Shown in pieces: positions 11,490 through 21,233 of a stretch of DNA of 33,739 nt (the stretch's first letter is position 1; each line of letters starts with the position of its first letter). Source of the stretch: Methanobrevibacter sp. (lineage in GTDB: Archaea > Methanobacteriota > Methanobacteria > Methanobacteriales > Methanobacteriaceae). The notes under the pieces were generated by a model. It had not been told where the DNA came from. It searched no databases and was given only the letters and a program-made list of their open reading frames with translations. The stretch is taken from NCBI RefSeq assembly GCF_017468685.1, contig NZ_JAFUHT010000005.1:1-33739 (forward strand). Reading direction: 5' to 3'. The position numbers and the translations under genes were made by a program.

Positions 11490-12185
11490 CTATTCAATTG
11501 AATATTTTTTCATTAAAGCTTCTTTTTGAATCTCGTTTACTTTACGACATCCTTCCATAGCTAAATCAATTGCTTTTGCAAATTCTTCTTCAGTTAAATC
11601 TCCATCACTTTGCAGTAATGTGATTTCACCAGTTCTTGGCATCATAGCTATTGGAACATCAGCTTGTCCTTCCTTATCTTCTTTTTCTGATAAATCAAGG
11701 ACGATTTCATCATAAACTTTACCTGCAGCACAACCTACTACAATATCTTTCATAGGGATTCCTGCATCAACCAATGCAACAGAAGCTGCTGTAATACCAG
11801 CACAACGGGTTCCTCCTTCAGCTTCTATTACTTCTATATAAATATCAATCATTGACCTAGGATAATTTTCTAACATTAATGCTGGTCTTAAAGCATCAGC
11901 AGTGATTTTAGAAATTTCAGATGACCTTCTGTCTGGTCCAGGTCTTTTTCTGTCATCGACTGAAAAAGGAGCCATATTATATCTGCATCTGATAACTCCA
12001 GTATTTGGTTCAAGCAATCTTCTAATGTATGATTCTCTAGGACCGTAAACAGCCACTAATATTTTATTTCCACCAACTTCCAAGTAAGCTGAACCATCTG
12101 CACGTTCAAGAACACCTGCTTCAATTTTAATAGGACGTAATTCATCAAATTTCCTACCATCATCTCTTATTAAATCTGACATCAT
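11490..12185 (-). CDS. rrp41: Archaeal exosome catalytic subunit Rrp41
   Basis: Rrp41 is the phosphorolytic 3'-5' exoribonuclease subunit of the exosome. The 231-residue RNase PH-like protein shows [33 protein letters not shown], the RNA/phosphate-binding [12 protein letters not shown] region and [19 protein letters not shown]. The acidic catalytic segment is in [19 protein letters not shown] ribosome binding site lies upstream of two adjacent ATGs; the first (12185) is used here. It follows rrp4 by 22 bases and precedes rrp42, the conserved archaeal order. Confidence 0.97.
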
Positions 12186-12207
12186 ATCAACCTCTAATTT
12201 TGAAGAA

Positions 12208-13131
12208 TCATTTATTATTTAATATGAAAGAATTATTGGAGTTATCACTATATGATAATGAACCATCTTTGCTTTTATTTTTTCTTTTGAATTCTTCTAT
12301 AACTTCACCAATATCTGGTTTTTCTTTTTTCTCATTTTCTTCTTCTGCTGCTTTTTCTTCAGCTTCTTTTTCTTCTTGTTCTAATTCTTCTTTAAAATTT
12401 TGAAGTTTAGGTTTTTCTAAAACAAATTCCTCTTCTTCTTCAACCTCTTCAGGTGGCAATTCACCATCAATAGCTAAGTATAATTTGTTTTTAATTTTAT
12501 TTGTTAAACCAGAAGTATGAGCTTCAGCTTCAATTAAATGAATTATGTCACGGGTAAGTTGTTCCATATCTTCGTTTCCTTTAACCCAAACAAGACCGTT
12601 TTGACCAACGACAATTTTACATTTTGTTTTGTCTTTAATCATGTTGATCATTGAACCTTTTTTACCGATTAATCTAGGAACCTTGGTTGGAGCAATATCT
12701 ACAATTATTCCTCCCTTGAATTTACCCATTCCTCTACCTTTTAAACCGAGTTTTGCCTTTTTGATTTCATCAACATCGACAACTCTTAAAAATAGCACAT
12801 CCCCAACATCATATACTTTGTTGAGTTCTTTTTTCTCACGACCAAACACTTCAAAAGCAGGTAAAATTCCAGAATATGGTGAATTAATGTCAACATCCCA
12901 CATTGAGAATCTGACATCCTTAATTTTTCCAATTACAACATCTCCTTTTTTAGGAACATATTTGCTTTTTAAAGGAATAACTCTGATTTTTTTATTCCTT
13001 AAAGAAACACGTCCCAGTAAAGAAGAACAAACTTTACCATTCTCTTTAAAGGTACCTCTTCCTGAATAGTATTCGTCATCGGCCAATATTTGACCTGGAA
13101 TAACTAAATCTTTATTTTCCACATGTATCAT
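12208..13131 (-). CDS. rrp4: Archaeal exosome RNA-binding cap subunit Rrp4
   Basis: Rrp4 forms the RNA-binding cap on the Rrp41-Rrp42 ring. The N-terminal domain (about residues 1-58) is followed by an S1 domain (about 62-130, [15 protein letters not shown]) and a KH domain (about 143-200) with the GKKG loop at 156-159. At 307 residues it is longer than usual. The extra length is a C-terminal tail from about 225, highly charged and Glu/Lys-rich, then a Ser/Asn-rich end, predicted disordered or coiled. Similar acidic tails occur on several proteins of this operon, such as PsmA. Confidence 0.96.
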
Positions 13132-13152
13132 AATAATCCCATAAAAATGAAT

Positions 13153-13854
13153 TTATTTAAGAGTTCTAGTTTCTGCTTCTCCACCTGAAATTTCAGCCAT
13201 TTTAGCAGCAAATGAATTTTGAAGCCCTCCAGGCATTTCAATAATTCCAATCCATGAACCGTCTTGTTGCCATTCTTCATTAATTATTTCTCCAAATCCA
13301 TGAATTACATTATAAGCACTTCCGGCTGCAGAGCCTGGAAGTCTAACAGCTACTTTTACTTTTTCAAAACGGATTGGAATAAGTGGCTTAATGGCTTTCA
13401 GTGCTGATTGGACCTGTTGGTCAACTGATGTGAACGGATCAAATTTTACTTTAGCCTCATCACATGCATTTTCAATTCTTTGAACTGGGTGAGGCAGTCC
13501 ATTTTGAGGATTTATTGCTTCTTTCGCAATTTTATTTATAACAAGTTTTCTTTTATCCTCTTGCATCTTTCTTTTTTGATCAGCAGTTAATTGGACAGTT
13601 CCTTTTTCAAGTATAATTTTAGAAACTTCAATAGGATCAGTAGTTTCAAAAATTTTATTCATAGCTTCATCAGAAGCTTTATCTCCTTTTTTAGAGTCTT
13701 TAAAAATTTCTTCAACAGCTAAAAGATCTTCGATGGCAACATCTGGACCATCAGGATTTCGAAAATCTGCTGCCAAATCAGGGTCAACCAATATTTCAAA
13801 GTGTTCTCCCATGTACTCATATTTAGCAATTATAGCTTCATCAACATTTACCAT
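13153..13854 (-). CDS. Ribosome maturation protein SBDS homologue (Sdo1)
   Basis: The archaeal SBDS homologue takes part in late maturation of the large ribosomal subunit. The 233-residue protein has the N-terminal FYSH-type domain ([21 protein letters not shown]), a central helical domain containing the [14 protein letters not shown] basic helix, and a C-terminal ferredoxin-like domain with [15 protein letters not shown]. The ATG at 13854 is chosen; a TTG one codon upstream is also open, and a GGAG lies eight bases before the ATG. It sits between psmA and rrp4, as in other euryarchaea. Confidence 0.96.
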
Positions 13855-15981: not shown

Positions 15982-16006
15982 AATAAGTGATAAACAATCA
16001 CTTATT
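15982..16006 (-). terminator. Intrinsic-like terminator of the zinc-ribbon membrane protein gene
   Basis: A perfect 10-bp inverted repeat (AATAAGTGAT with ATCACTTATT, five-base loop) overlaps the stop codon of the upstream gene. On the minus-strand transcript it is followed by two runs of T separated by one A. Stem plus U-tract fits a terminator that insulates rpp30. Confidence 0.7.
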
Positions 16007-16655
16007 GATATCTAAAGAATTCGACTTCCCAATTGACAGTTTCATAATAATCTATTGTGAATATCTCTTCAGATGATGAAGTATATGTAAATGAATCTGA
16101 TCTGGTTTCAACTGCACTTTTAGAACCCCAATCCACTCCGCCGGACTCTCCATTAGAACCGGTTACATATAAATGATTAGTAGCATAATTTTTTATTGGA
16201 TATGCTGAAAGTTTTACCATAATTTTACCTTCAGGAACATTGATAGTTTCAGAACCTGAACCTTTACCTGAATAACTTCCTATAGATACCCATTCTTTAG
16301 AATCGCTTTGCGTTGTAGTTGAAGTTTTTGAAGAAGAAACAGTTGTGGTTTTTGCTGAATCAGACTCTTCATTTGCCTCATTATCTGATTCCCCAACAGA
16401 TTGAACATTATTTTGAGAATCAGCATTTTGTGAATTTTCATTGCTTACCACGGAATCAGAATTAGTATTCAATGCAAAATAACCTATTGTTGCGATTAAA
16501 ATGATTATAATGGCAATCAATCCAATTATAAGATATTTGGAATTATTTGATTTTGCAGGTACACTTTCTGTTGGCTTTACAATCAACGAATTTCCACATT
16601 TTGTGCAAAATTTTGCCTTGTCTTTATTTTCAAATCCACAGTTACTACATTTCAT
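16002..16655 (-). CDS. Zinc-ribbon, single-helix membrane protein
   Basis: The 217-residue protein starts with a zinc ribbon (C3, C6, C17, C20) in the cytosol, then a short linker and one membrane helix (about residues 41-62). A low-complexity extracellular spacer rich in Ser, Asn, Glu and Thr (about 63-125) follows, then a C-terminal domain of about 90 residues that looks beta-rich (SIGSYSGKGSGSETINVPEG onward). Ribbon-helix-extracellular-domain proteins of this plan are common in Methanobrevibacter and have no known function. The gene is divergent from a winged-helix regulator. Confidence 0.8.
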   Translation of the reverse strand: MKCSNCGFENKDKAKFCTKCGNSLIVKPTESVPAKSNNSKYLIIGLIAIIIILIATIGYFALNTNSDSVVSNENSQNADSQNNVQSVGESDNEANEESDSAKTTTVSSSKTSTTTQSDSKEWVSIGSYSGKGSGSETINVPEGKIMVKLSAYPIKNYATNHLYVTGSNGESGGVDWGSKSAVETRSDSFTYTSSSEEIFTIDYYETVNWEVEFFRYQ

Positions 16656-17099: not shown

Positions 17100-18083
17100 T
17101 TATAATTCAATCCCTTCCTTAATACTTTCTAATTCATTAAAATCTTCATTTAATGAGCACTCTCTTAAAACATCACATAATAATTTTAATAATAACGTAT
17201 TTTTGAAAAACAATGGAAAACTTTTATCTGTTTCTTTAAAAATTGATTCATTTGTAGGTGGAGTCAAATCTTTTCTATATTGCATTTTTATCTCATTTCT
17301 TAAATCTTCATCAATATACTTTTCCAAATAAATGATTATTTCATTAGCAAAGGAATTTCCTAATGTTATCATACTTTCCAATGACTCTTCATCAAAATTA
17401 GAATTTTCGACCAAAACATTAAAAGATCCGTAGTTTTGATACCCAAATGGAACAAATCTTCCCTCAACAGTATGTGCACAGTATTCATTCATAATTCTAA
17501 ACTCTGGCAAAGTCATAAAATGCCATATGAAACTTTGAAGAGTTGAAGATGATTTTACCTTAAACATATGGCACAATAAGCTTTCAATAATAGTAAATAA
17601 GAAAAAATGCCCTAATTCATGGATAATTGTTGCAATCTGAACCGAATCCGATAATCTATCATCATAATAAATACCATTTCCCAAAAATATGAATCCTCTT
17701 TCATAGCCTCTTGATTTAGGATTGCACTGTGTAAAAATACTTGCAAAATTTAATATTTTATTTTTTATCGTATCTCCCCAAATATCAATATAATCTGCTT
17801 TTGCAAAAATATTTGATAAAATCTGATTATATTCCTCATCTGATATTTCTGCATTAGCTAACAACTCTTGATTGAAATGTGAAAATAGAATCTCAAAATC
17901 ATCAATACTGATAGGGTTGATTTGACTTTTACATTTAACACAATGAGTAGCAAAATCACTGTTGCTATGACCACATATTGGACAAATATGTTCTAAAATA
18001 AGTTTATTACCACAATGTGTACAGTAATTATTTTCTTTAAAATTTAAAGTTCCACATACGTCACAGCTTTTCACTTTTCTCAC
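17100..18083 (-). CDS. Double zinc-ribbon protein with a HELGH metallopeptidase-like domain
   Basis: The 327-residue protein opens with two CxxC-x10-CxxC zinc ribbons (C7, C10, C21, C24 and C34, C37, C48, C51). A larger domain follows, containing HELGH (H155, E156, H159) in IATIIHELGHFF, the zincin metal motif, and E200 in NEYCAH, which could be the third gluzincin-type ligand. The segment before HELGH (FIFLGNGIYYDDRL) resembles the edge strand of zincins. There is no signal peptide, so it would act in the cytosol. Its start overlaps the stop of the seven-ribbon gene. The protease role is inferred from the motif only; I know no characterised relative. Confidence 0.75.
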   Translation of the reverse strand: MRKVKSCDVCGTLNFKENNYCTHCGNKLILEHICPICGHSNSDFATHCVKCKSQINPISIDDFEILFSHFNQELLANAEISDEEYNQILSNIFAKADYIDIWGDTIKNKILNFASIFTQCNPKSRGYERGFIFLGNGIYYDDRLSDSVQIATIIHELGHFFLFTIIESLLCHMFKVKSSSTLQSFIWHFMTLPEFRIMNEYCAHTVEGRFVPFGYQNYGSFNVLVENSNFDEESLESMITLGNSFANEIIIYLEKYIDEDLRNEIKMQYRKDLTPPTNESIFKETDKSFPLFFKNTLLLKLLCDVLRECSLNEDFNELESIKEGIEL

Positions 18084-18967
18084 TACCCCAACATGTTTTT
18101 AAGACTGCGCACAGTATCAGTGATTGAATTTTTATGCATGAATCTTATTTTAATATTTTTACCGCAATTGGAACAGAATTCTGTATCCCAATCAAGAATT
18201 TCTCCACAGGAACATACAATTTTTGTCTTGACATTCCTTTGAGGATTCAATGGCCTTTCACATTTTTCACAAAACTTTAAATGCTTTTGATTTTTATGTC
18301 CACAAACACAAAGTATTTTGGTATCTTCCTTTTTTAAATTGTTACCGCATTCAATGCAAAAATCAGAAGTGATTTCATTTAAATTAGAACAGGTACATAA
18401 AATTGCCATTTCTCCTATGTTTCCATAGTTGGACAAAGGCAAACCACAGTTACGGCAGAATTTGGAAAATTTTTCATTTTCCTCACCGCAAAAACAAAAT
18501 ATAGAATCGTTGAATTCGATGTTGAAATTACTGTAGTTGTCAGGAATTTCAATCTCATCTTCCTTCAGTTGCTTTCCACACATCTCACAGAAAACGTTGT
18601 CTTTAGAGTTAACTTTACCGCATTCGCATAATACTGTATCCACTGAAAACTTTGGTTTGGATTTTCGTTTTAAAAATTTAGAGAGCTTGCTTTGTGATCT
18701 TTTAGCTCCACACATATAGCAATATTCATCATTAATATCATTCAGGTATCCGCAAGAGCAAATATCATATTTAACATCTTTATTAGAGTTGATATATGGA
18801 GAAAAATCAATTGAAAAATTGAAAAACCCTATATTGTGAATTGGCGGTGTGAAAACATAGACATCATTACTTGCATCATATATTGTTTTATGACCGCATC
18901 CGGTACAATAGGGTTCATTTGGAAGTATTCTATGTCCACATATCTTACAATAGTTCTCTAAATGCAT
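18083..18967 (-). CDS. Protein with seven tandem zinc ribbons
   Basis: This 294-residue protein is almost entirely zinc ribbons. The first is conventional (C7, C10, C21, C24). The other six use a CxC first knuckle: C70/72-C83/86, C114/116-C127/130, C158/160-C171/174, C191/193-C204/207, C220/222-C233/236 and C252/254-C265/268. In all seven exactly ten residues separate the two knuckles. The linker between ribbons 1 and 2 is longer and aromatic, and a basic stretch (KLSKFLKRKSKPK) lies after ribbon 2. No enzyme domain is visible; an adaptor or nucleic-acid/protein-binding scaffold is plausible. It starts four bases after the RecJ-like gene and overlaps the metallopeptidase gene. Confidence 0.8.
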   Translation of the reverse strand: MHLENYCKICGHRILPNEPYCTGCGHKTIYDASNDVYVFTPPIHNIGFFNFSIDFSPYINSNKDVKYDICSCGYLNDINDEYCYMCGAKRSQSKLSKFLKRKSKPKFSVDTVLCECGKVNSKDNVFCEMCGKQLKEDEIEIPDNYSNFNIEFNDSIFCFCGEENEKFSKFCRNCGLPLSNYGNIGEMAILCTCSNLNEITSDFCIECGNNLKKEDTKILCVCGHKNQKHLKFCEKCERPLNPQRNVKTKIVCSCGEILDWDTEFCSNCGKNIKIRFMHKNSITDTVRSLKNMLG

Positions 18968-18971
18968 TTTA

Positions 18972-21233
18972 TCATTTTCTGGATAATGACTGTATTTCCT
19001 CTACAACTTTATACAGTACCTCTTCACCTAATCCTTCAATATATTTAATGGAACCGGCACATTCATGACCTCCTCCATCTACACCTGCCTGAGGAACATT
19101 TTCAATCATTTTTGTGACTATTTCATTTACATTAAATCCATACTGTTCGTTTACAGCATCAGTTGCCCTAAATACTCCAAAATCAGGCCCATGACCTAAG
19201 GTAACAATAGGCTTATCTTCACCTAACTGTTTGATTATATGGTCATGTACAAATCCGCAGGTTTTTCCAGGAGCTGGGAATGTGAATTTATGGGCGAATT
19301 TTTCAACGTCCAACAGGTTAAAGTAGATTCCATTTTCAAGCTGGGTTTGCTTAATATTAGGCAATGCTGCTCTAAGTTGAGTATCGATTCTTTTTTGATA
19401 TTCCTTATATAATGCATCAATCATTTTTCTGTGCTTATCCAAATTATCCACAGCAAGAATAGTGTCCATTATTCCTCTTCCATTCATAAATCTTAAGAAA
19501 TAAGCTTCAAAATCTACACATTCTGCAACTTTTGCTAAGTGTTCCTGACTATATCCCTTTTGGGCAGCAAGCTTTAAGTATTGGTAAACTTCACCACATT
19601 CGGCACGGTCTCCCAAAGCTGCAATTGCCGGCAAATGTTTAATTAATTCTTCAACGTCAGGGTTTATGATATGTGCCACTTCTGTTGCAAGACAACCTGC
19701 TGTTAGCTGTGAGTCTCCACCTACCAGATATGGGTTTACATGACAGTCAACATATTCATCAACCGCTACAGTTGCACCATAAATCTCTCCATCCCTTTCA
19801 TCTTTGGTAATTAAATCTCCGGGAGAGTGGTGGTCAATTACTACGACTTCTATGTCATATATTTTTGCCTGCATTAATGCAACAATATCCTCTTCTGTTG
19901 AACCGTTATCCAACAATACGATTAAAGGCAACTTTTGACCGTGTCTTTCCTGGTCTTCCAGTGCAAAAGACAGATCCTTGACTACATCTTCAAGTTCATA
20001 GAATGGTGCTTTACTTGGAGACCTTTTAAAGTAGTAATACTCAGCATCATTGCTCGGATTGGCCTTCTGAATCAATGGAACAATAGCCTTTTCCATTGCA
20101 ACACCAGAAACAATACCATCTGCATCATTGTGGTGTCTGAGAAGAACAGTTCTTCCATCAAGTATTGCCCTTCTAATTCTTTGGGCAGCCTCATACATCT
20201 TAGGTTTAAGTCTATTTAAAACATCACTTTTGACCAAGAATTCAACATCTTTTGGTTGAGCTTTCCTGTTTAATGCATCATCTATCAATTTATGTAATTG
20301 GCGTGTGCTTTCTTCATCAAGTTTTATCATTGAAGATGACTCAATCTGTGTTTTTCCACTATGTTCATTAACTTCACCTATGACCTGAACAGCATCATTC
20401 AATTCGATTTCAGGATAGGATCTCTCACCCGCCTTATCAAATGCGGCGATTTCAGTAGTGCCACTTTCATCACTAATGATGAAAATTGTTGGACCGGAAG
20501 TTTGCTGAATTTGCTGAACTTCCCCATCAATCCGTACAATCTTTCCTTTCTTCTCATCAAGCTGACTGATAAGGGTTCTTGGAATGGATTTGGTGAGTCT
20601 TTTAAGATTATAAGTTTCAACATATGCAGGAGCAAAATCAATTTTCCCTTCTCTTGACTTGATAGAAGTTACAAATACAATAACCTCTTCACCTACATTA
20701 TATTCAGAGACATCTCCTCTCATGAGTCCCCAAACATTATTGTTCAATGAAACAAAAGCCCCATAACGTTCTATTCTAGTAATTTTTCCTTTATATAACT
20801 TATCCCTATCAATATCCTTCATATTACACAGGGAATCAAGAACATAAACATCCCGAGCCTGTTTTCTTCTAGCTTCATATTCATCATGCTTCATTTTATC
20901 AGCCTTTCTTTTTTCTCCACATTCATGACATATATCATATTTTTCATCAAGAAGCTTTCCACAGTCCCTGCATACATTTATTTGACCTGTTCCATGACAA
21001 TGAGGGCATTCTTCATAAACTTCCACTTGCCCTTTTCCATTACATGCTTCGCATGGAATATCCTCTTCTCCTCCAAGGTCAAATTTATCACGTGCTTTAC
21101 TGTTAACTCCTTTAAAATGATTTCCTATATCAAAAACATCATCTTCATAACCGGTTCCACCACATGCATCACATTCTTTGTAGTCGACCACAACAGAACC
21201 GATTCCCTTACATTTTGGACATTTAGTTTTCAT
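18972..21233 (-). CDS. RecJ-like DHH phosphoesterase with DnaJ-type zinc fingers, S1 and OB domains
   Basis: The 753-residue protein is a predicted single-strand nuclease or phosphodiesterase of the archaeal RecJ group. In order it has four CxxCxGxG motifs (C5, C21, C61, C76 regions) as in the DnaJ zinc finger, a zinc ribbon (C88, C91, C102, C105), an S1 RNA-binding domain (about 146-192), an OB-fold (about 229-305), a DHH domain with HHNDADG at 367-373, LLDNGS near 440 and DHH at 467-469, and a DHHA1 domain with GGGH at 720-723. All DHH catalytic motifs look intact. It leads a tight operon with the zinc-ribbon genes downstream. Confidence 0.9.
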   Translation of the reverse strand: MKTKCPKCKGIGSVVVDYKECDACGGTGYEDDVFDIGNHFKGVNSKARDKFDLGGEEDIPCEACNGKGQVEVYEECPHCHGTGQINVCRDCGKLLDEKYDICHECGEKRKADKMKHDEYEARRKQARDVYVLDSLCNMKDIDRDKLYKGKITRIERYGAFVSLNNNVWGLMRGDVSEYNVGEEVIVFVTSIKSREGKIDFAPAYVETYNLKRLTKSIPRTLISQLDEKKGKIVRIDGEVQQIQQTSGPTIFIISDESGTTEIAAFDKAGERSYPEIELNDAVQVIGEVNEHSGKTQIESSSMIKLDEESTRQLHKLIDDALNRKAQPKDVEFLVKSDVLNRLKPKMYEAAQRIRRAILDGRTVLLRHHNDADGIVSGVAMEKAIVPLIQKANPSNDAEYYYFKRSPSKAPFYELEDVVKDLSFALEDQERHGQKLPLIVLLDNGSTEEDIVALMQAKIYDIEVVVIDHHSPGDLITKDERDGEIYGATVAVDEYVDCHVNPYLVGGDSQLTAGCLATEVAHIINPDVEELIKHLPAIAALGDRAECGEVYQYLKLAAQKGYSQEHLAKVAECVDFEAYFLRFMNGRGIMDTILAVDNLDKHRKMIDALYKEYQKRIDTQLRAALPNIKQTQLENGIYFNLLDVEKFAHKFTFPAPGKTCGFVHDHIIKQLGEDKPIVTLGHGPDFGVFRATDAVNEQYGFNVNEIVTKMIENVPQAGVDGGGHECAGSIKYIEGLGEEVLYKVVEEIQSLSRK

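Follow-up and report, generated by a model that had tools for sequence, protein, structure and literature searches.

A predicted zinc-ribbon peptidase gene and its seven-ribbon partner behind HAN

In the window, a 33,739-nucleotide stretch of a Methanobrevibacter contig (NZ_JAFUHT010000005.1), a conserved array opens with the gene for HAN (Hef-associated RecJ-like nuclease), continues with the gene for a seven-ribbon protein (R7) and ends with the gene for a predicted zinc-ribbon metallopeptidase bearing an HELGH motif (Table 1). The HAN product matched the NCBIfam model HAN_nuclease with an E value of 1e-208 and 694 bits, under the model cut-off of 840, and its Pfam matches run in the order DnaJ_CXXCXGXG, S1, tRNA_anti-codon and DHH (DnaJ and S1 slightly under cut-off), giving the HAN domain order of a DnaJ-type zinc finger, two OB-type folds and DHH. 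An earlier reading of this DNA, made without database searches (the sequence-only reading), had placed a RecJ-like nuclease directly upstream; the nuclease is indeed there, its gene 4 nt from that of R7.

Table 1. Coordinates of the genes and protein features at the locus, in window positions.
Feature	Position	Strand	Basis
Convergent winged-HTH (wHTH) regulator, 96 aa	16809..17099	+	Synteny; not obligately linked to the pair
Predicted zinc-ribbon M78-like metallopeptidase gene	17100..18083	-	ORF; orthologues in nearly all Methanobrevibacter genomes
Catalytic domain, residues 60-327	17100..17906	-	AF2 models
E200 on an ExxA helix, possible third metal ligand	17484..17486	-	Invariant 91/91
HELGH active-site motif, residues 155-159	17607..17621	-	H155, E156, H159 invariant 91/91
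Zinc ribbon 2, C34/C37/C48/C51	17931..17984	-	Sequence; Pfam DZR
Zinc ribbon 1, C7/C10/C21/C24	18012..18065	-	Sequence; in A1, all four Cys unchanged in 16/16; Pfam DZR
Seven-ribbon partner R7, 294 aa, 28 Cys	18083..18967	-	ORF, conserved Cys
HAN, first gene of the conserved array	18972..21233	-	NCBIfam HAN, synteny

The HELGH gene encodes 327 residues as an open reading frame, or 324 residues if read from the GTG at 18074 (codon 4). Because its orthologues mostly begin with MKxCDxCG, this GTG is probably the true start rather than 18083, and the overlap with the R7 gene would therefore become an 8-nt gap. The distance from R7 stop to HELGH-gene start varied only from -4 to +9 nt in 93 orthologous loci, and this narrow spacing makes the translational coupling proposed earlier for the two genes plausible. 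Judged from spacing, the adjacent genes are apparently co-transcribed, as in type II toxin-antitoxin modules. Scans for bacterial-type promoters and terminators gave signals at background level.

Both peptidase ribbons have the form CxxC..CxxC, and Pfam DZR spans residues 7-51, a match that is sub-threshold for the single protein. Together with the intact HELGH, this bears out the description of a protein with two zinc ribbons and a peptidase motif. The count of seven ribbons in the neighbour likewise holds, as all 28 R7 cysteines are at least 95% conserved (94 orthologues), with the last six ribbons of the form CxC...CxxC, not CxxC...CxxC. Ribbon proteins are abundant in the window's genome, which has 23 DZR matches.

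Every orthologous locus whose contig was long enough showed the order HAN, R7, HELGH gene and convergent wHTH gene. In locus L169 (genome G032), HAN and wHTH lie approximately 180 nt apart and both pair genes are absent, and in G029 the next gene after HAN is RNase P p30, the pair and wHTH both missing in between. Since both genes are missing in each case, the pair is gained or lost as one unit. Two further loci are shaped by their contigs: in G023 R7 lies at a contig end, and L147 (G012, contig C83) is a palindromic contig with mirrored peptidase genes in broken frames, a probable assembly artefact. An apparent 613-aa R7-peptidase fusion (L058:213-2054 and L141:3538-5379) was rejected, its junction being an assembly N run. 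Outside Methanobrevibacter, where the contig continues, HAN is followed by unrelated genes and the pair is absent.

The distance matrices of R7 and the HELGH protein correlated beyond what HAN and wHTH explain (partial r 0.68, reached in 0/1000 permutations), a value to which shared linkage may contribute. The candidacy of wHTH as a dedicated substrate is weakened, as the gene is kept without the pair in L169 and showed no co-variation with the peptidase (partial r -0.42). A ribbon and transmembrane protein with a conserved extracellular-looking domain is encoded at 16002-16655 (reverse strand) in the window and is also found downstream of wHTH in L169, and in another locus an inserted transposase-like ORF (L040:1773-2978) separates the peptidase gene from wHTH.

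The catalytic domain and its relation to M78 peptidases

AF2 modelled the full-length protein with a pLDDT of 89.3 and the catalytic domain alone with a pLDDT of 93.8 and a pTM of 0.92. The predicted layout comprises helices, three beta-strands (119-141), the HExxH helix (146-174), a helix bearing E200 (193-210) and a helical C-terminus. We aligned the catalytic domains of 91 homologues, paralogues included, ranging from 80% down to approximately 25-30% identity, and found H155, E156, L157, H159, E200 and G130 invariant in 91/91 and A203 almost invariant. No homologue had lost H155 or E156, the loss that would have spoken against the motif, and E200, which the model places on the helix at 193-210, is likewise invariant and stays a candidate third ligand, as suggested earlier. 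Among near relatives, with synonymous sites nearly saturated, dN/dS was approximately 0.05-0.12 for the R7 and HELGH genes and approximately 0.03 for HAN. Because H155, E156, L157 and H159 are invariant down to approximately 25-30% identity and dN/dS is low, the HELGH motif is beyond chance.

The best catalytic match in Pfam is Peptidase_M78 (PF06114), at 17.4 bits for the window protein versus a gathering cut-off of 22, a cut-off that paralogues L065 and L072 barely pass (22.3 and 22.4 bits). M78 is also the commonest non-ribbon Pfam match, found in 12 of 16 family members at E<=0.1 (best 4e-4). Against 13 bona fide M78 proteins that came from organisms of the same family, profile-profile comparison by hhalign gave a probability of 91% (E 1e-6) and set HELxH on HELYH, the alignment ending before E200. 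PprI/IrrE ranked first in both PDB fold searches (probability 0.77 and 0.80), but neither search gave a significant structural match (best E 0.11-0.14, TM approximately 0.2), and a sequence search of solved structures returned nothing beyond unspecific matches to ribbons or short helices. A zincin fold, as anticipated by the sequence-only reading, is thus favoured by the profile match and by the top-ranked structure, without significance for the latter.

The predicted protein resembles M78/COG2856 proteins (PprI/IrrE of Deinococcus, ImmA of ICEBs1) in being cytosolic and in carrying, behind a three-strand sheet, an HExxH and then a Glu on a helix with ExxA. It differs from them in its two N-terminal zinc ribbons and seven-ribbon partner, its extra helical C-terminus, and an H159-E200 spacing of 41 residues compared to approximately 20-30 in genuine M78 proteins that the same genomes encode. 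It also has no fused or linked XRE repressor, the only nearby regulator being the non-XRE winged HTH. Because the single-protein profile score is sub-threshold and the fold matches are not significant, we name the catalytic domain M78-like, a putative divergent relative of IrrE/ImmA metallopeptidases, without assigning it to the family; the window's genome encodes separate, genuine M78 genes besides the HELGH protein.

Two further groups of metallopeptidases share features with the domain. The putative metallopeptidase DUF6782 (PF20573) gave weak matches in 10/16 family members (E<=0.1), sub-threshold where scores are shown and confined, where coordinates are shown, to the region around HExxH. 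SPRTN/Wss1 and the selecase of M. jannaschii have an HExxH metal site, SPRTN in addition zinc modules or a DNA-repair context, and the selecase was among the top, non-significant fold matches, but no sequence similarity to either was found. The third metal ligand of SPRTN-type proteases differs from the Glu that is the candidate here.

Distribution and paralogues

The pair is present in approximately 62/66 Methanobrevibacter genomes. R7 was found in 63/66 but, within the order, in none of the other genera, and a match to the HELGH protein in 59 of 60 sampled Methanobrevibacter genomes. Wider searches placed the peptidase family in four genera, all Methanobacteriaceae; the named matches are Methanobrevibacter and, for paralogues, Methanosphaera. 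Co-occurrence of the two genes across methanogens had been put forward as a check, and it is strict, with the genes adjacent, but within one genus for the pair and within four genera of one family for the peptidase. The R7-peptidase pair behind HAN is therefore genus-specific, HAN itself being already known, and the literature we searched held no mention of the pair. Collections of plasmids, phages and viral contigs yielded no relatives.

HAN-linked copies form one clade apart from all other copies of the peptidase domain (100/100), of which the window's genome has one (C92). Some of these paralogues carry a TPR N-terminus, and some lie in restriction- or defence-like loci. In L076:1098-6709 and L078:1061-6720, HSDR_N, a SWI2/SNF2 helicase and ribbons are fused to the M78-like domain (1166-1167 aa), with a 700-717-aa protein encoded 5-6 nt downstream, in which Methylase_S was detected for the L076 copy; the arrangement resembles a system of restriction type that carries a protease domain. 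Another group of peptidase proteins is associated with MrcB_N (L086:3548-5146, L087:3341-5152, L098:2708-4177 and 11793-13292, and L099:2461-3972), a domain that Pfam detected in L086, L087 and the second L098 copy. The L087 gene adjoins a DinG-type helicase, and that of L099 is near an MTES_1575 nuclease-like gene. In L061:1845-4397 and L062:1947-4496, adjoining 2-oxoacid:ferredoxin oxidoreductase genes, the peptidase domain belongs to 850-aa proteins and is preceded by unknown repeats that take up approximately 570 residues.

A second recurrent partner is a ribbon protein with the motif KKLKELTGG, which lies beside or tail-to-tail with short ribbon-peptidase copies in L060, L063, L064, L066, L067, L071 and L074 and carries a SAP domain in L060 and L067. 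This is a better observation than the idea that CxxC multi-ribbon neighbours are systematically over-represented next to paralogues, which we rejected (4/81 versus 3/200 in the background), the cases being too few and the search pattern having missed CxC ribbons. That HsdR-, MrcB_N- and SAP-linked proteins share this catalytic domain suggests that proteolysis is used in DNA-associated systems in a lineage-specific way.

Predicted function and alternative explanations

With its conserved active site, M78-like profile, confident fold model, obligate pairing and fixed place behind HAN, the pair is tentatively interpreted as a two-gene module for regulated proteolysis, possibly linked to DNA stress. 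Of the functions named in the sequence-only reading, regulated proteolysis thus survives as the best-supported guess. The 17100-18083 product would be a cytosolic zinc metallopeptidase, IrrE/ImmA (M78)-like, whose HExxH and E200 bind metal, and its N-terminal double ribbon would dock it to a partner, most likely R7 from the same transcript. R7 would in turn act as an adaptor, sensor or substrate presenter bound to nucleic acid or to a complex. A signal, plausibly stress on DNA or at the replication fork, would allow the peptidase to cleave a specific regulator. We infer the peptidase activity, the R7-peptidase binding, the nucleic-acid sensing, the DNA-stress link and the substrate alike. A DNA-stress signal is plausible because HAN lies in the same array, yet this step is the weakest because HAN lives without the pair in other genera, and the neighbourhood to HAN may be positional.

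DNA-damage sensing in most archaea is poorly understood, and most archaea are not known to have an SOS system. Abundant gut methanogens offer a concrete, testable candidate in this conserved predicted protease, fixed with its ribbon partner behind the nuclease for fork repair. By analogy, the HELGH protein may act like PprI, an ssDNA-binding metallopeptidase in DNA-damage signalling that cuts a specific protein when it senses ssDNA (PMC10904395); COG2856 (M78) proteins, moreover, pair with repressors (PMC2701414). It is a bolder and doubtful proposition that the locus encodes an archaeal PprI counterpart, a peptidase with a multi-ribbon sensor coupled to HAN/Hef, and that it represents the founder of a methanogen peptidase family whose domain was taken up repeatedly by restriction- and defence-type proteins to serve as their proteolytic effector.

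HAN cooperates with Hef at stalled forks (PMC5717133), and its place in the fixed array would also suit a protease that clears forks or DNA, brought to DNA by its ribbons and R7 to degrade proteins stuck there as SPRTN/Wss1 do, together with HAN at stalled forks and without a dedicated regulator as substrate. Relatives of the domain on DNA modules (HSDR_N and SWI2/SNF2 helicase with a specificity-type gene, MrcB_N, and the ribbon and SAP partner) point the same way. We nevertheless consider this unlikely, as the profile points to M78 and not to SprT/WLM, the third ligand would be Glu rather than His, other paralogues have TPR or unrelated N-termini, and in every other genus examined HAN functions in the absence of the pair.

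Somewhat more remote is a housekeeping role in which the ribbons bring the protein to the ribosome or RNA polymerase, where the peptidase domain would process or remove components without any link to DNA damage. The ribbons weakly resemble the ribosomal zinc proteins L32, L40e and L37 as well as DNA polymerase D, and the pair is retained in the genus much like a core gene; such unspecific matches are expected for any ribbon, however, and confinement to one genus with clean loss in L169 ill suits an essential translation or transcription factor.

A defence or toxin-like effector, in which the peptidase would be restrained by R7 and, upon infection, kill the cell or arrest it, appears quite improbable for the HAN-linked copy, despite paralogues fused to an HsdR-like protein with a specificity-type gene next in line, and MrcB_N paralogues that have a DinG-type helicase or a restriction-nuclease-like gene close by. 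That copy is single, and its separate clade stands apart from those paralogues; PADLOC gave no match. The patchy, mobile distribution of type II toxin-antitoxin modules was not seen: the pair is near-universal in the genus, keeps a single chromosomal position, evolves under purifying selection and was found in none of the plasmid, phage and viral collections, and the toxin-like module suggested earlier is therefore not supported at this locus. Very improbable, finally, is a pseudo-enzyme that keeps the HExxH fold as a metal-stabilised binding domain without proteolysis, since structure alone would not need the catalytic base E156 and both His to be invariant in all 91 homologues.
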